Assembly (NCBI GenBank): GCA_938042245.1 | Contig: CALIRO010000002.1 | Span: 1-64,000 of the forward strand | Length of the DNA stretch: 64,000 bases | Direction: 5' to 3' | Origin: an uncultured Thermoguttaceae bacterium | GTDB lineage: Bacteria > Planctomycetota > Planctomycetia > Pirellulales > Thermoguttaceae | Part shown: piece by piece, positions 2,290 through 56,841 of the stretch | Layout of the letters: every line of letters begins with the position of its first letter | Position numbering within the stretch: position 1 is the first letter of the stretch | Translations under genes and position numbers: made by a program | The notes under the pieces: generated by a model | What the model saw: the letters and a program-made list of their open reading frames with translations, nothing else | What the model was told of the DNA's origin: nothing | Database searches by the model: none

Positions 2290-5200
2290 TTAGGGCGCCG
2301 GTTTGGCGGCGGTGGGTTTTCGTGGGGATTGGACCTTGGCGCCGGGGCCGTAGGGGATTGCACCCCGAGGGCCAACCTCGTAGCCCCACCGGCGTAAGTA
2401 GTCCTGACGAGGCCGAAAATCCTCGCCGATCGCCTTTAACAATGCCTGCAACCGTTGGTCCAACTCCGCCTGCAACTGGGCAAACTGCGGCTGGCCGACC
2501 AAGTTTTTCATTTGATAGGGATCGGTTTCGTCGTCAAATAGGAGCCAAGGGCCGTTCAGGTCTCGAACATAAGTATATCGGCTGGTACGGAGGCCTCGGT
2601 ATTCTTTGCCCTCGAAGTTGTCGGCAAACGGCGCCACATTCATGATGAGCACTGCCCGATCTGGGCGCTCTGGCCCGCCGCGGAGGAGTTCGGAGAGGTC
2701 TTCGCCTTCGACGGTTTTGGGTACGTCGAGGCCGGCCAAAGTCAACAGCGTCGGCATCAGGTCCACCGTGCTGATAGGTGTACGAATGATCTTTCCCTGG
2801 CGACCGTGCAGGCCCGGCCAACGGATCAAAAGCGGGACCCGCACCGACTCATCATAGGGGACCTGTTTCCGATAGGGTGGCAAGGCCTGGCTGCCAAGCA
2901 TTTCGCCATGGTCTGAGGTGAACACTAGGATGGTTCGGTCGGCCAGGCCGGTCTCCTCCAACGCCGCTACAATCTGGCCGACACATCGGTCCAGGGCGGC
3001 ACAGTGGCCGTAGTAACCAGCCGCCTCTTGGCGAAGTTTTTCGGTCTGCATTTCCGGCGGCACATTAGGCGGAAACTGGATCTTCTCCGGCGGGCAAAGG
3101 GCCTGGCAATCTGGGGGGGCCGTGTGGTGGGGAAAATGGGGCGGTCCATAGGAGACAAATAAAAAGAAAGGTTCGCCTTGCCGAGCCGACCGCCGAAGAT
3201 ACTCCACCGCCGCCTGGGTCTGAGCAAAGGCGTCGTAGCCTTCCCAAAACTGTTTCTGGGGGTTCTGGCCGGTGTAATAATGAGACTTAAGATAATTATG
3301 ATCACATTCTGCCGCCATCCAAAACTGGAATCCTTGCCGACGTTCCGGCGGGATGTAGGCGTCTCGGCCATGGCCGTCCAGGTGCCATTTGCCGATGTAG
3401 GCGGTTCGGTAGCCGGCCTGCTGGAATAGTTCCGCCAGGGTAAGCTCTTCATCCGGCAGATATAGGTCGTTCATGAACATGCCGGTGGTGGTGGGAAACC
3501 TGCCGGTCAGCAGGGCGGCCCGATACGGCGTGCATACCGGACAGACCGAGATGGCCCGATCAAACCGGATGCTCTGCCGGGAAAGCCGATCCAGGTTCGG
3601 TGTGTGTACATTGGGATCGCCTTCCCAAGGCGCTGCTTTGGCCCGCCATTGGTCCGTCAGCAGAAACACGAGGTTTGGTTTGGAAGATGAATTTTTATCG
3701 GCCGGTCGATTGTCGCTGGAAGGCGTTGCCTGGTGCTGGACAGGCGTAGATGGCGGTAGAACCGAGGAGGTTGGTTTGGCCGACTTGGGCCGGGCTTTGG
3801 GTTTGGGTTGAAGTTCTTCCGGCGGCAGATTTCGTTTGGCGTCTTGTTGAAACTGCTCCCAAAGCTGGTTCCAGAGGGTTTCCAGCTGCTGGGCTTTTTC
3901 TGGGTGTTGAGAGAGGAGGTTTTTGGTTTCGCCGCGGTCGTCAGCCAGGTTATAAAGTTCCCAGGGATCGCCGCGGGCGGCCACCAGTTTCCAATCGCCC
4001 ACTCGGATGGCCCGATGGCCTTCGTGCAGGAACCAGAAATAGTCATGTTGGACCGTGCCGTCTTTTTCGAAAAGAGGCCGGAGGCTTTTTCCTGGCAGCG
4101 GCGGCCGTGCCTGCCCCTGCCACTCCTCCGGCACGGGGATGCCCGCAAGCTCCAAAACAGTAGGAAACACGTCGATAAAATGGACCGGCGTATGCCGAAG
4201 TTCACCGGCTGCTCGAATTCCTGCCGGCCAGTGCACCACCAGCGGGGTGGCAATGCCGCCTTCGTGGACCCAGACCTTATGTCGGCGAAATGGGGTGTTG
4301 GAGGCGCTGGACCAGCCGGGCCCCAGGCATAGAAAAGTTTGTCCACTCCCCGGCGGCGCTTTCGGGTCATGGCCGTCGCCCCGGACCATGATCTCCGCAC
4401 TGGCCCCGTTATCCGAGGCAAATAAAATCAGCGTATTCTCCCAGGCGTCCATTTTGCGAAGTTGTTCGAGCACCTGGCCGATCGCCTCGTCCATCAGATG
4501 GACCATAGCCGCATGGATGGCCATTTTGGCGGCCTGAAAGCGCTGTTGCTCGGCCGTAAGCTCCTGCCAGGCAAGAGGCCGGTTCACCTCGCCCGGGCCA
4601 AGAATCTTCATGGCATCTGGAAATGGGTACGGTGGACCAAGCTCCCGCTCCATCGGCGGCGGATCATGCCGAACCAAACCCATTTGCCGAAGCCGTTGGC
4701 CCCGCTCCTGTTGGATCTGGTTCCAGCCCACTGCGTACCGCTCCACATAGCGGGCCACCACCTCTTGCGGCGCATGAAGCGGAAAATGCGGAGCAGTAAA
4801 GCACAGATACAAGAAAAACGGCCGGTCCTGGTACTTCTGCTGGTGCTCCTGCAAGTATTTGACGGCATATTGAGCAATGGCCGAGGTGGCGTAGTAACCG
4901 TCTTCCGGTCCAGGCTGGGGCAGGGGCCGATCGTCTTCTAAGTGGTTCTTCGGAGCAAAGAAGCGATTGTGATCTTCCAGAAGGTAGCTATGGTCGAAGC
5001 CGCCGGCCAAAGGTGAACCGTCGATATGCCATTTGCCGCTGTGATAGCAGCGATAGCCGTGCTGGCGAAGGAGTTCGGAAAGCAGCGGGGCCCAGGTGGG
5101 GCGGCGTCCTTGATTGCCGCTTCGGACGCCCGGAACCGTATCCCGCCGAACTTGCTGGGCATAATAGCCGGTCATAATGGCGGCCCTTGAAGGCCAGCAC

Positions 5201-7266
5201 CGGCCCGTATTGTAACATTGGGTAAACCGAAGTCCACCGGCAGCCAACCGATCCAGATGGGGCGTCTCGATCTCTCCGCCATACCAGCCCAGATCGGAAT
5301 AGCCCATGTCATCGGCTAGGATGATGAGCACATTCGGCCTGGACGCCGTGTTGGCAGAGCGAACCGGCTCAGACGGTTTGGAGGATGGCTGATCGGCCGG
5401 TACGTTTTCCGAGGCAGAAGCCAGATTGGTTTGGGGAAGCTGCTGGGCCAATCCAACCGATCCGCCTCTCCCCTGGCGGGAGAGGTCGGCTGAGCCGAAG
5501 GCGAAGCCGGGTGAGGGGGTATAGCACACCGCCTCCGTCAGGAAGCAGCTTTCCTGGAGGCCAACCTCAGCCTCCTTCTCCCTCACCCCTGCCCCTCTCC
5601 TGCCGAGGGGAGCGGGGGGAAATAGAGAGGTTTTCGTCTCCGGGGCCGGTTTAGGACCTACTTTAGGCTTTGGTTTAGGTTTCGGTTTTTCTGGCTTGGG
5701 TACGACGTCGTTCATCAGGCGGCGCCACTGTTGCATCCGGTCGATGTCGGCTTGGGAGGCTGTTTGCGGCTGAAACTTCGAGGGATCCAGGTCGATATAC
5801 AACGCCCGGTGGAGGGAGGGATCGAAGTTTGGATTCGGCGTATTCTCTTGGGCGCCGATCTGTTTGCGCCAGGTGTCTAGTGCCTGTCGGAGCCGATCGG
5901 CCAATTCGGGCATCTTGTCGGCCAGGTTGTGGGTTTCGCCGGGATCTTGATCGAGGTTATAGAGTTCCAGTTGGCCGGTTTCGTATGGTTGGATGAGTTT
6001 CCAGGGGCCTTGGCGTACTGCGCCGCCGGGCCTGCCACCCTGGTTGGTATAATGCGGCATATGCCAGAAAAGCAGTCGGCCAAGGGTGTCTGAATCGGTA
6101 CCAGATGGCCAGCGGGCCGTTTGTCCAGAAGCAGCCGGCTGGGAAGAGCGGCTCGGCGAAGCGCCCCCGGAAACATCCCCTGAAATATCGCTTCCGGTCG
6201 GGCAAAGCAGATGGGCCATGCTCTGGCCGTCCAGGTCCTTCGGCACCGGCAGGCGCAGCAAGTCCAAAAGCGTGGGGACCCAATCGGTATGGATCATAGG
6301 TTCATGGATCAGTTTGCCCGCTGGTACCCGGCCAGGCCAACGGACAATCAGCGGCACCCGAAGCCCACCCTCATACAGGTAGCCTTTGCCCGCCCGATAG
6401 GGGCCGTTGTGGGTGATCAGCCGATGCGGCCCCTCCGGCACATGTAAGCCGCCATTATCCGAAGTGAAGATGACGATGGTGCGCTCGGCCAGTCCAAGGC
6501 GATCCAAAGTCCCCAGCAGTCGGCCCACCGTATCGTCCAACGTTTCGATCAGGGCGGCATAGACCGGCTCGAAGGCCTTGGCGTTTTTTTCGATCAGGGC
6601 TTGCCGAGCCGTATAGGGAATATGCGGCGTATTATGCGCAAGATAAAGGAAAAAGGGGCGGTCTCGGTTGGCCCGGATGAACTGCTCGGCAGCGGCGGTC
6701 AGATCGTATTCCCCTTTGCCGCCCTCGGTTTCTGAAGGAACAGTGTTCGCTTTCCCAGGATGAACAAAATCAAATCCTTGCTCGGCGGGACCGAATCCTT
6801 GGCCGCCCAGGTGCCACTTGCCGATGCAGGCGGTGGCATAACCGGCCTGTTTGAGCCGTTCGGCCAAGGTGATCTCTTCCAAGGGCAGTTGCATGGCAAT
6901 TTTCGGATGAAGGAGCTTTTGCGATGGCGCATCGGGCCGACCGGGCAGAAACGTCGTCAGGTGCAATCGGGCTGGGTCTTTGCCGGTCAATAGGGCTGCT
7001 CGGCTGGGCGAACAAACCGGCGAGGCCGCATAGGCATTGGTAAACCGCAGGCCCTGCGATGCCAACCGGTCCAAATGCGGCGTGCGATGCTCTGACCGGC
7101 CATAACAGGCCAAATCATATACGCCAAGGTCATCAGCCAGGATAAAGACGATGTTGGGCAGATCGGCCGGTCGGGAGCCATCGGCCGGTTCACCGGCAGA
7201 TGAACTTTGTACATCTAATACCAACACCACCCAAGTTACCGCCCACAAGTTCAGGGATCGTCGCAT
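2290..7266 (-). CDS. Secreted triple-domain sulfatase (three alkaline-phosphatase-fold domains)
   Basis: A 1658-residue protein made of three complete sulfatase domains, each with its own formylglycine motif: CSPSR at Cys85, CWPSR at about Cys690 and CTPYR at about Cys1245. Each also has the N-terminal metal motif (ILADDLG, ILADDMG, LLTDQWR) and a later SDNG or SDHG metal motif. Typical sulfatases are 450-600 residues, so this equals three fused enzymes. A signal peptide lies in residues 1-24. ATG 7266 is preceded by AGGAGG with 8-base spacing, which favours it over upstream in-frame starts. Linker 1 (about residues 545-640) is Lys/Pro-rich followed by translated repeat DNA; linker 2 is also Lys/Pro-rich. 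The role is probably stepwise desulfation of a sulfated glycan outside the cytoplasm. No formylglycine-generating enzyme gene is in the window. A frameshift-free triple fusion is unusual but the reading frame is clean. Confidence 0.9.
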   Translation of the reverse strand: MRRSLNLWAVTWVVLVLDVQSSSAGEPADGSRPADLPNIVFILADDLGVYDLACYGRSEHRTPHLDRLASQGLRFTNAYAASPVCSPSRAALLTGKDPARLHLTTFLPGRPDAPSQKLLHPKIAMQLPLEEITLAERLKQAGYATACIGKWHLGGQGFGPAEQGFDFVHPGKANTVPSETEGGKGEYDLTAAAEQFIRANRDRPFFLYLAHNTPHIPYTARQALIEKNAKAFEPVYAALIETLDDTVGRLLGTLDRLGLAERTIVIFTSDNGGLHVPEGPHRLITHNGPYRAGKGYLYEGGLRVPLIVRWPGRVPAGKLIHEPMIHTDWVPTLLDLLRLPVPKDLDGQSMAHLLCPTGSDISGDVSGGASPSRSSQPAASGQTARWPSGTDSDTLGRLLFWHMPHYTNQGGRPGGAVRQGPWKLIQPYETGQLELYNLDQDPGETHNLADKMPELADRLRQALDTWRKQIGAQENTPNPNFDPSLHRALYIDLDPSKFQPQTASQADIDRMQQWRRLMNDVVPKPEKPKPKPKPKVGPKPAPETKTSLFPPAPLGRRGAGVREKEAEVGLQESCFLTEAVCYTPSPGFAFGSADLSRQGRGGSVGLAQQLPQTNLASASENVPADQPSSKPSEPVRSANTASRPNVLIILADDMGYSDLGWYGGEIETPHLDRLAAGGLRFTQCYNTGRCWPSRAAIMTGYYAQQVRRDTVPGVRSGNQGRRPTWAPLLSELLRQHGYRCYHSGKWHIDGSPLAGGFDHSYLLEDHNRFFAPKNHLEDDRPLPQPGPEDGYYATSAIAQYAVKYLQEHQQKYQDRPFFLYLCFTAPHFPLHAPQEVVARYVERYAVGWNQIQQERGQRLRQMGLVRHDPPPMERELGPPYPFPDAMKILGPGEVNRPLAWQELTAEQQRFQAAKMAIHAAMVHLMDEAIGQVLEQLRKMDAWENTLILFASDNGASAEIMVRGDGHDPKAPPGSGQTFLCLGPGWSSASNTPFRRHKVWVHEGGIATPLVVHWPAGIRAAGELRHTPVHFIDVFPTVLELAGIPVPEEWQGQARPPLPGKSLRPLFEKDGTVQHDYFWFLHEGHRAIRVGDWKLVAARGDPWELYNLADDRGETKNLLSQHPEKAQQLETLWNQLWEQFQQDAKRNLPPEELQPKPKARPKSAKPTSSVLPPSTPVQHQATPSSDNRPADKNSSSKPNLVFLLTDQWRAKAAPWEGDPNVHTPNLDRLSRQSIRFDRAISVCPVCTPYRAALLTGRFPTTTGMFMNDLYLPDEELTLAELFQQAGYRTAYIGKWHLDGHGRDAYIPPERRQGFQFWMAAECDHNYLKSHYYTGQNPQKQFWEGYDAFAQTQAAVEYLRRSARQGEPFFLFVSYGPPHFPHHTAPPDCQALCPPEKIQFPPNVPPEMQTEKLRQEAAGYYGHCAALDRCVGQIVAALEETGLADRTILVFTSDHGEMLGSQALPPYRKQVPYDESVRVPLLIRWPGLHGRQGKIIRTPISTVDLMPTLLTLAGLDVPKTVEGEDLSELLRGGPERPDRAVLIMNVAPFADNFEGKEYRGLRTSRYTYVRDLNGPWLLFDDETDPYQMKNLVGQPQFAQLQAELDQRLQALLKAIGEDFRPRQDYLRRWGYEVGPRGAIPYGPGAKVQSPRKPTAAKPAP
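5460..5640. repeat. Palindromic repeat inserted in frame in the sulfatase gene
   Basis: Two palindromes bracket this segment: 5466-5486 (CCTCTCCC-CTGG-CGGGAGAGG) and about 5588-5618 (CCCCTCTCCTGCCGAGGGGAG). The first runs on into GAGCCGAAGGCGAAGCCGGGTGAGGG and the second is preceded by CCCTCACCCCTG, the same arrangement as the non-coding repeat at 2117-2289. It is read in frame and supplies most of the linker between sulfatase domains 1 and 2. Confidence 0.65.
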
Positions 7267-7437
7267 TGCAGAATCCTCCTTCCTACCAAGCGAATCTCTC
7301 TCCTGCAAAGCAAATTGCTCCCCCAACCTTTGCGCCATGATACCTAGCCCGGTAGAATGGCGAAAGATGGCAGAGGCGCGCAAAAACCTGCGGCGTTTGC
7401 CGGGAACATATAGGGTGATCGAGAAACAGTTTAATTA

Positions 7438-54504: not shown

Positions 54505-56841
54505 ATGCGACGAAGCTTCCGAATAGGGTTGATTTGTTTTGGAGCGGGGCTGGGTGGATTATTTTTCTGGAGTCCACTGTGGGAACTCGGTCTGGGGTCG
54601 GATTCGCTCCTGGGGGTGGAGGAGATTTTTCGGTGCTCGTTTGACAAGACGGAGTTCTCGCCGCTTCGGCACACCTGGGGCGATGCACCGGTGAAAGCAT
54701 GGATTGCCCCCCAGGAGGGCCAAGGGGTGGGCAATTCCCGGGCCCTTCGTCTGCAGCTGAATTTTCCCGAATCGGTTCAGCAGAACCTTTCTTATTGGAC
54801 CTATGATCTGCCGGAACCTGTGCCGATAGCCCCACCCTTGGAGTCGATTCGGTTTTCGGTCAAAACGAATGTGCCGATTTCTCTGAAGGTAGCCATTTCG
54901 CCGTATGGGTTTATTTACCATGGGCCGACCGTCGGGCCGTCGGCTGAGTGGCAAGAGGTTCGGCTTGCGAATGCCTACCAGGAACTTCGCCAATGGTGTG
55001 AAGGGGGCGGCCGACCCGTCGAGGCGGCCTGGGTGCAGGGCATTATTGTGGCCGTCGGCAATACCCGGGGCGCTCAAGCGGACATCCTGCTGGACGATCT
55101 GTGCGTGGAAGGGCCTGCCGGCGCCGCCGAGGCGATCCGGCAAGAGGCCTTCCGTCGGCGGACCCGCAAAGTGCGGATCGCACCGATTTCCCTTATCTGG
55201 GACCAGGGGCATCGGACGTTGGAGGCCGTGCTGAGCCGACTGGACGAGGCAGGCCAGGCCGGTGCGGATTTGGCCTGTCTGCCCGAAGTCTGTGTAGATC
55301 AGCCGCCCGAGCCCATCCCAGGCCCAACCTATGAAAAAATCGCCCAAAAGGCGGCCCAGTACAAGATGCTCGTGGTGGGTAATCTTCGGGAAAAAGATGC
55401 CGACCGGTGGTATGTAACGTCGTTTCTGTGCGATCGGCAAGGCCGACTGGTGGGCAAGTACCGGAAGAGCCACTGCTTGCCGTATGAGCGGGGGCCGGGG
55501 CCGGACGCCGGCTTTTCGCTGGGCGATGACCTGCCGGTCTTTTCCACGGACATTGGTCCGGTGGGGCTAAAGATCGGCACCGACCATTACTTCCCGGAGA
55601 TCGACATGGTGCTGCGCCGTCGGGGGGCCAAGCTGATCGTCTGGTCCACTAGTCCGTTTCCGGTGCGAGATGAGCATTTCTTTACCTTCTCGCTGCAAGG
55701 CCGGGCCGTCGATCTGGATGCGTATTATGCGGTAGCCCAGTATGCAGGTCTGAAAGGCTACGGCGGCTACGAAGACCGGTTTTCCTGGACCGGCACCTGG
55801 CCGATCGGCCGAGCCCAGGTCGTTGCCCCGGACGGCCATACGCTGGCCGACTCCGGCCATGGCGGCGGGGTGGCCGTGGCCGTCCTACCAGCGGCGAACC
55901 TTCTGGGCGCCGTCAACCCCAAAGCCGGGCTGGATACCGAAGGCCCCTATCGGCTGGCAACCGCCCCGAAAGAACAATTGCCCCCGCCCTGGCCCAAACC
56001 TTCTGACAAGCCGCGAACGGTCCGAGTGGCAGCCATCGAATGCGAACCGAATATGGACCGGCTTCTGGAGAAGCTGGACTACTGCGGCCAGCAACAGTGC
56101 GACCTGGTCTGCCTGTGGGAATACGTCTGGTATCAAAACGACGAAGAAGTCGAAAAATACCGGCAGCGGAACGAACAGTGGCTTCGGCAGATTGCCGAAA
56201 AGGCCGCCAAGTATAAGATGTACATTGTCATCGCCGGCGAGTTGCACCGAGGCTTCAACGAAGCGATCCTCTACGACCGGCAGGGCAAGGAACTAGGCCG
56301 ATATACCAAAATCATCCAGACAACGCCGAAGGAATCGAAGTTTTACCAGGCGGGCGATCGGGTGGGGATTTTCGACCTGGATTTTGGCCGGGTTTGCGTG
56401 AAAATATGTGCCGATGTTTACGCCCCGCTTTTAGATCTAGTGGCCGGCCTCTACCAGGTCGATCTCATGTTGCATCCTACCCAGGATGCTGGGCCGTATG
56501 GGGAGTTTATCCGCCTTCGGGACGGACATCGGGCGGTGGATCATGGGTATTTTCTGGTTCGGGCCACCAGCCCATGCGGGCCCAGCGACCACCGAGCCTA
56601 CATCCTGGACCCCTGGGGGATGGTCCTGGCGGCAAGTCAACATCTGACCAATAATTGGCCGGTAATTGTTCCCCTCCAATTGGACAATCGCCCCCGGTAT
56701 TTCGAATGGCCGGAAGACCTCCGCGCCAAAGGACCGTACCCGGACGGCTATCAGCAGAAGCGGCATCCAGCAGCCAAAGGCGATCTCCGGGCGGTGCTGT
56801 TGGAATCTCGTCGGCCAGAGCTATACCGGCCCAAGCCGTGA
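54505..56841 (+). CDS. Secreted tandem nitrilase-superfamily protein
   Basis: A 778-residue protein. Residues 1-22 form an N-terminal membrane anchor or signal. Residues 40-205 look like a beta-sandwich (ending ADILLDDLCVEG). Two carbon-nitrogen hydrolase domains follow. Domain 1 (about 222-470) keeps Glu261 (CLPEVC) and Lys321 (KYRKSHC), but the nucleophile position reads KIGTDHYFPE, with Gly358 instead of Cys. Domain 2 (about 505-760) keeps the whole Glu-Lys-Cys triad: Glu539 (CLWEYVW), Lys602 (RYTKII) and Cys635 (KICADVY). AAGGAG precedes ATG 54505. It is probably an amidase acting outside the cytoplasm; the substrate is unknown. Confidence 0.85.
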   Translation: MRRSFRIGLICFGAGLGGLFFWSPLWELGLGSDSLLGVEEIFRCSFDKTEFSPLRHTWGDAPVKAWIAPQEGQGVGNSRALRLQLNFPESVQQNLSYWTYDLPEPVPIAPPLESIRFSVKTNVPISLKVAISPYGFIYHGPTVGPSAEWQEVRLANAYQELRQWCEGGGRPVEAAWVQGIIVAVGNTRGAQADILLDDLCVEGPAGAAEAIRQEAFRRRTRKVRIAPISLIWDQGHRTLEAVLSRLDEAGQAGADLACLPEVCVDQPPEPIPGPTYEKIAQKAAQYKMLVVGNLREKDADRWYVTSFLCDRQGRLVGKYRKSHCLPYERGPGPDAGFSLGDDLPVFSTDIGPVGLKIGTDHYFPEIDMVLRRRGAKLIVWSTSPFPVRDEHFFTFSLQGRAVDLDAYYAVAQYAGLKGYGGYEDRFSWTGTWPIGRAQVVAPDGHTLADSGHGGGVAVAVLPAANLLGAVNPKAGLDTEGPYRLATAPKEQLPPPWPKPSDKPRTVRVAAIECEPNMDRLLEKLDYCGQQQCDLVCLWEYVWYQNDEEVEKYRQRNEQWLRQIAEKAAKYKMYIVIAGELHRGFNEAILYDRQGKELGRYTKIIQTTPKESKFYQAGDRVGIFDLDFGRVCVKICADVYAPLLDLVAGLYQVDLMLHPTQDAGPYGEFIRLRDGHRAVDHGYFLVRATSPCGPSDHRAYILDPWGMVLAASQHLTNNWPVIVPLQLDNRPRYFEWPEDLRAKGPYPDGYQQKRHPAAKGDLRAVLLESRRPELYRPKP

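Follow-up and report, generated by a model that had tools for sequence, protein, structure and literature searches.

All known functional members of the nitrilase superfamily are built on an underlying dimer whose monomers are joined at the A-surface (PMC4700190), and in beta-ureidopropionase activity is switched, and the loops of the active site are ordered or gated, by contacts between dimers (PMC10741476). Loss of the nucleophile within the superfamily is represented by BCG_2279c, the second Lnt homologue of M. bovis BCG, in which Cys387 is changed to Ser (PMC3850990) and which stands beside an intact paralogue. In folds unrelated to nitrilase, dead copies act on live ones: JAK kinases carry a pseudokinase and a kinase in one chain and the dead copy regulates (PMC10211241), and the S-adenosylmethionine decarboxylase prozyme is a dead paralogue that activates its live partner (PMC5201418; also PMC10211241). 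In this study, we report a protein from a Thermoguttaceae-like planctomycete in which two nitrilase domains lie in one apparently exported chain, the first with Gly in place of the catalytic Cys. The literature searched for tandem or inactive nitrilases gave no prior description of such a tandem. It differs from BCG_2279c, where the two copies are separate genes, the substitution is Ser and the family is Lnt; it resembles JAK kinases and the prozyme in that a dead copy accompanies a live one, in the same chain or beside it, although regulation was shown in those systems (PMC10211241, PMC5201418) and can here only be inferred.

The window (the whole stretch of 64,000 nucleotides that was analysed) contains an open reading frame of 778 amino acids on the + strand, preceded by AGGAGA and open from the ATG at 54505 to the stop at 56841; all features of the protein given below are on the + strand. 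Profile searches identified two CN_hydrolase (PF00795) domains in the chain, both above the cut-off of 23.2 bits: domain 1 (aa 221-470, 55165..55914) scored 99.4 bits and domain 2 (aa 501-735, 56005..56709) 57.1 bits. Both domains match the superfamily in fold and profile (mouse Nit2, 2w1v; Pyrococcus amidase, 6ypa), with Glu, Lys and Cys in domain 2 and Glu and Lys in domain 1; the protein differs from these enzymes in having two domains in an exported chain and Gly for Cys in domain 1. The protein stayed below the cut-off of the Lnt profile (TIGR00546; 21.6 bits against 132.9) and below those of the named equivalogs aguB, Nit6803, aliphatic amidase and formamidase (at most 54.3 bits against 355-502). 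The closest single-domain sequences are Planctomycetota nitrilases of 450-500 aa (e.g. L015 and L002), with about 35-44% identity in the best segments; like the window protein they have an N-terminal extension and the same Lys and Cys motifs, but they have one domain, and its Glu-Lys-Cys triad was complete in all 54 relatives sampled. The two domains are joined by a Pro-rich linker (aa 471-500, 55915..56004), into which one congener (L037) has a Pro-rich insert of 26 aa that the other two congeners lack. The chain ends in a conserved tail (aa 736-778, 56710..56838; ...DLRAVLL..RRPELY) that is common to all tandem homologues and to the single-domain protein of genome G032 described below, and that might cross the partner domain.

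The sequence-only reading had described one dead and one intact active site, and translation agreed with it residue for residue. Domain 1 has Glu261 (55285..55287) at the catalytic Glu position, Lys321 (55465..55467) and Gly358 (55576..55578) at the nucleophile position; domain 2 has Glu539 (56119..56121), Lys602 (56308..56310) and the presumed nucleophile Cys635 (56407..56409), all on conserved profile columns. In an alignment profile built from the single-domain relatives and both window domains, Gly358 and Cys635 aligned to a single column, occupied by Cys in 54/54 single-domain relatives. No other cysteine occupies the nucleophile elbow of domain 1, where the local sequence is GLKIGTDHYFPE; the cysteines of the domain are C258, C263, C309 and C324. 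A model of domain 1 (283 residues) was predicted from four sequences: the window protein, those of two congeners, and a distant nitrilase, the one found when viral contigs were searched for extra rows. The model (pTM 0.71, pLDDT 62.7) matched solved nitrilases in a Foldseek search of the PDB, with a best E of 3.6e-15 to 2w1v and a TM of about 0.63, and placed Gly358 (model residue 143) at the strand-to-helix turn of the nucleophile, formed by strand 136-140 and helix 143-147.

Across the family, the residues Lys321, Glu328, Asp360, Pro364 and Glu365 are invariant in domain 1, Lys321 in all copies of the domain, and the motif GKYRKSH is kept. Fixed replacements occur beside them: Gly358 where the single-domain relatives are 100% Cys, Ser381 where they are 100% Pro, and Cys263 (55291..55293), two residues past the Glu position, which is present in 8/8 first domains while the same position is Ile, Leu, Val or Phe in 53/54 single-domain relatives and Cys in 1/54. 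Cys263 is the only invariant Cys of domain 1 and, with Cys635, one of the only two invariant cysteines in the tandem alignment. These substitutions indicate that the pocket of domain 1 has been remodelled.

Members of the tandem family turned up in nine genomes when about 1,200 genome slots were searched, a figure in which some genomes recur. Three belong to the window's genus, five to the same family (G020, G048, G058, G032 and G005), and one, G876, lies elsewhere in the phylum. The congeners G002 and G001 match in sequence a Thermoguttaceae bacterium MAG and a Planctomycetota MAG, respectively. Full-length tandem proteins were present in the window, G001, G002, G020, G048, G058 and G876. The elbow of domain 1 reads IGTD or IGSD in these seven proteins and in G005, so that Gly is found in all eight first domains that retain the stretch, which represent four to five lineages with identities down to about 40%; the loss of Cys is shared by orthologues. 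The Cys of domain 2 is kept in 7/7 full-length proteins. Other catalytic positions vary: the Glu of domain 1 is Gln in G020 and G048 and Met in one G058 remnant, domain 2 of G058 has lost its Lys (GKYRISQ), and the remaining part of domain 2 in G005 has neither Cys nor Lys. The G005 copy and copies on two G058 contigs are further shortened or broken tandems; the two broken G058 remnants lie at L082:4565-5505 and L083:964-1634. G032 encodes a protein of 324 residues (L085:5438-6409), an in-frame chimera whose first half resembles domain 1 and whose second half resembles domain 2. The switch falls just before the nucleophile; the chimera keeps Lys and Cys, has Gln for Glu, and retains the equivalents of both Cys263 and Cys635. 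As these are draft genomes, assembly error is possible for the chimera and for each shortened or broken copy. Separately, L069 and L078 (G689, contig C124) show three consecutive nitrilase genes, with the triad intact where they are complete.

In a maximum-likelihood tree of 70 domains, one branch (100/99) separated every one of the 16 tandem-family domains from the 54 single domains. Domain 1 and domain 2 copies separated from each other, except for the long-branched G058 and G005 copies, and a single domain 1 clade was not rejected (p-AU 0.514). The simplest reading, consistent with the tree, would be one internal duplication and one Cys-to-Gly change followed by spread, including to one distant lineage; the loss of Cys thus appears to be ancestral to the tandem family.

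Comparison of the congeners by the Nei-Gojobori method, with synonymous sites near saturation in places, gave dN/dS values of 0.06-0.08 for domain 1, 0.04-0.06 for domain 2 and about 0.11 for the presumed beta-sandwich. Over longer distances the order is reversed, with window-G020 identities of 51% in domain 1 against 38% in domain 2, window-G058 identities of 41% against 30%, and invariant columns over four lineages of 64/229 against 34/198. At such distances domain 1 is the better conserved of the two and domain 2 the faster-evolving. Domain 2, described by the sequence-only reading as intact, is so in its triad; other superfamily positions have been lost, namely the PGP motif and, in part, the Pro-Glu after the elbow. 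The stricter conservation of the dead domain suggests that it probably has a job of its own, and the dN/dS values, invariant columns and fixed residues together argue that it is constrained and no relic. The proposed pairing of a pseudo-enzyme with an active domain was borne out at the level of sequence, by a shared ancestral Cys loss and strong constraint on domain 1.

The secreted beta-sandwich that had been proposed for the region preceding the two domains found partial support. A hydrophobic region (aa 1-40, 54505..54624), read from the sequence as an export signal, is the fastest-evolving part of the protein (dN/dS 0.20-0.33), and aa 1-30 resemble an export signal by eye. Within the presumed sandwich (aa 41-215, 54625..55149), aa 96-202 were predicted mostly as beta-strands, but the model is of very low confidence and the sequence matched nothing in Pfam or the PDB. 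A profile of the region matched in the three congeners only; tandem homologues outside the genus do not have it, which places it, as judged from sequence, outside the conserved system, and no sequence link was found to the N-terminal extensions of single-domain relatives. A full-length AlphaFold model from three sequences reached a pLDDT of 33.7, so neither an interface nor the fold of the sandwich is inferred from it; in Foldseek it returned nitrilase pieces only, with a TM of about 0.1. The location had also been called unusual for nitrilases, which was not supported, since the phylum commonly has apparently exported nitrilases of one domain that carry some 200 additional residues at the N-terminus.

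The window gene stands alone between a radical-SAM QueE-like gene upstream and a Ser/Thr kinase gene on the opposite strand downstream, one neighbour being divergent and the other convergent. No conserved neighbourhood was found across the window's genus, and the neighbours in G001 differ. A secreted-looking family of 720-950 residues, A3, adjoins tandem-family genes in G032 and G876 and a remnant in G058. It also adjoins one single-domain gene in G017, is absent from the window, and was found near none of the other single-domain nitrilase genes at 20 sampled loci. Its closest relatives occur in 9/9 tandem genomes, but also in G017. A3 has a weak GH36-like PDB match (E 0.04), and a tie to glycan breakdown is possible on this circumstantial basis. 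A3-type proteins at L082:1936-4779, L085:3063-5231 and L091:1-2232 carry the motif DMVYFDGxEDV and have no Pfam or NCBIfam match, and the A3-type family is multi-copy in these planctomycetes. Elsewhere in the window, an open reading frame of 1714 residues on the - strand (2293-7434) encodes a single chain with three sulfatase domains, whose motifs are CSPSR (aa 141), CWPSR (aa 746) and CTPYR (aa 1301); the fusion of several enzyme domains in one protein may be habitual in the window's genus.

What the sequences establish directly is the two-domain architecture with its residues, the Gly common to the first domains, and purifying selection acting on domain 1. The best explanation of these findings, to which we give about an even chance, is that an exported amidohydrolase of this superfamily has turned its usual homodimer into a single, asymmetric chain, an intramolecular pseudo-heterodimer with the dead domain 1 as obligate partner. 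Because superfamily members dimerise at the A-surface and oligomer contacts gate the loops, the fused pair is most simply seen as an intramolecular dimer; for the same reason the role of obligate dimer partner is no less likely than the regulation or substrate binding put forward by the sequence-only reading. Domain 2 would be the hydrolase, with Cys635 attacking a C-N bond assisted by Glu539 and Lys602. Domain 1 would have lost its nucleophile in the common ancestor, been retained as the obligatory A-surface partner, and now shape or gate domain 2; a ligand may still be bound by the remodelled pocket of domain 1, with its conserved Lys and second Glu. Counting against this explanation are the superfamily positions lost from domain 2 and its faster divergence over long distances; the G058 domain 2 without Lys means that activity of this domain is not a given, and G032, with a single chimeric domain, indicates that a covalent twin is not always needed. 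If the faster divergence of domain 2 and the missing Lys in G058, together with the G005 remainder lacking both Cys and Lys, are given most weight, neither domain would now be a hydrolase and the protein would serve binding or structure at the cell surface. We regard this as improbable, as Glu-Lys-Cys is kept in domain 2 of 6/7 full-length homologues and the dN/dS of the domain within the genus is low.

A stronger competitor, which we consider possible although well short of the fused dimer, is that domain 1 serves chiefly to bind a substrate or ligand: its emptied pocket would hold an amide or glycan-linked substrate and deliver it to domain 2 or sense it, the pairing of the domains being incidental. 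The pocket residues Lys321, Glu328 and Asp360 do not vary, whereas Gly358, Ser381 and Cys263 are novel residues that have become fixed, Cys-to-Ala nitrilases have been crystallised with amides (6ypa and 5ny7, by PDB titles only), and in three genomes the secreted GH36-like protein has a tandem gene or a remnant as its neighbour; the conservation, however, extends over the whole of domain 1, beyond the pocket. The fixation of Cys263 would alternatively fit a domain 1 that is still an enzyme, its nucleophile having moved from the elbow to a position beside the general-base Glu, and there are pseudoenzymes whose catalytic residues have migrated (PMC10211241). We judge this quite unlikely: in the model Cys263 (residue 48) lies directly past the Glu strand (41-47), away from the elbow, the Glu itself is replaced in G020, G048 and the G058 remnant, and the G032 chimera keeps both cysteines, so that Cys263 is no simple replacement. 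Were it true, one chain would carry two different active sites. The lost Cys and the broken or shortened copies in several genomes could also suggest a functionless, decaying leftover of duplication, a reading we disfavour and hold to be very improbable in view of the low dN/dS of domain 1, the Gly fixed in every lineage and the larger number of invariant columns than in domain 2.

The comparisons point to a real, conserved enzyme-pseudoenzyme fusion within the nitrilase superfamily. In symmetric nitrilase homodimers it is hard to study how one subunit shapes the active site of the other, and in a naturally fused pair of which one half is dead, the role of partner is set apart from catalysis within one chain. 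Slower evolution of the dead half than of the live one is a clear and testable sign that the dead half acts, and with this protein the nitrilase fold would join the list of fused enzyme-pseudoenzyme pairs.
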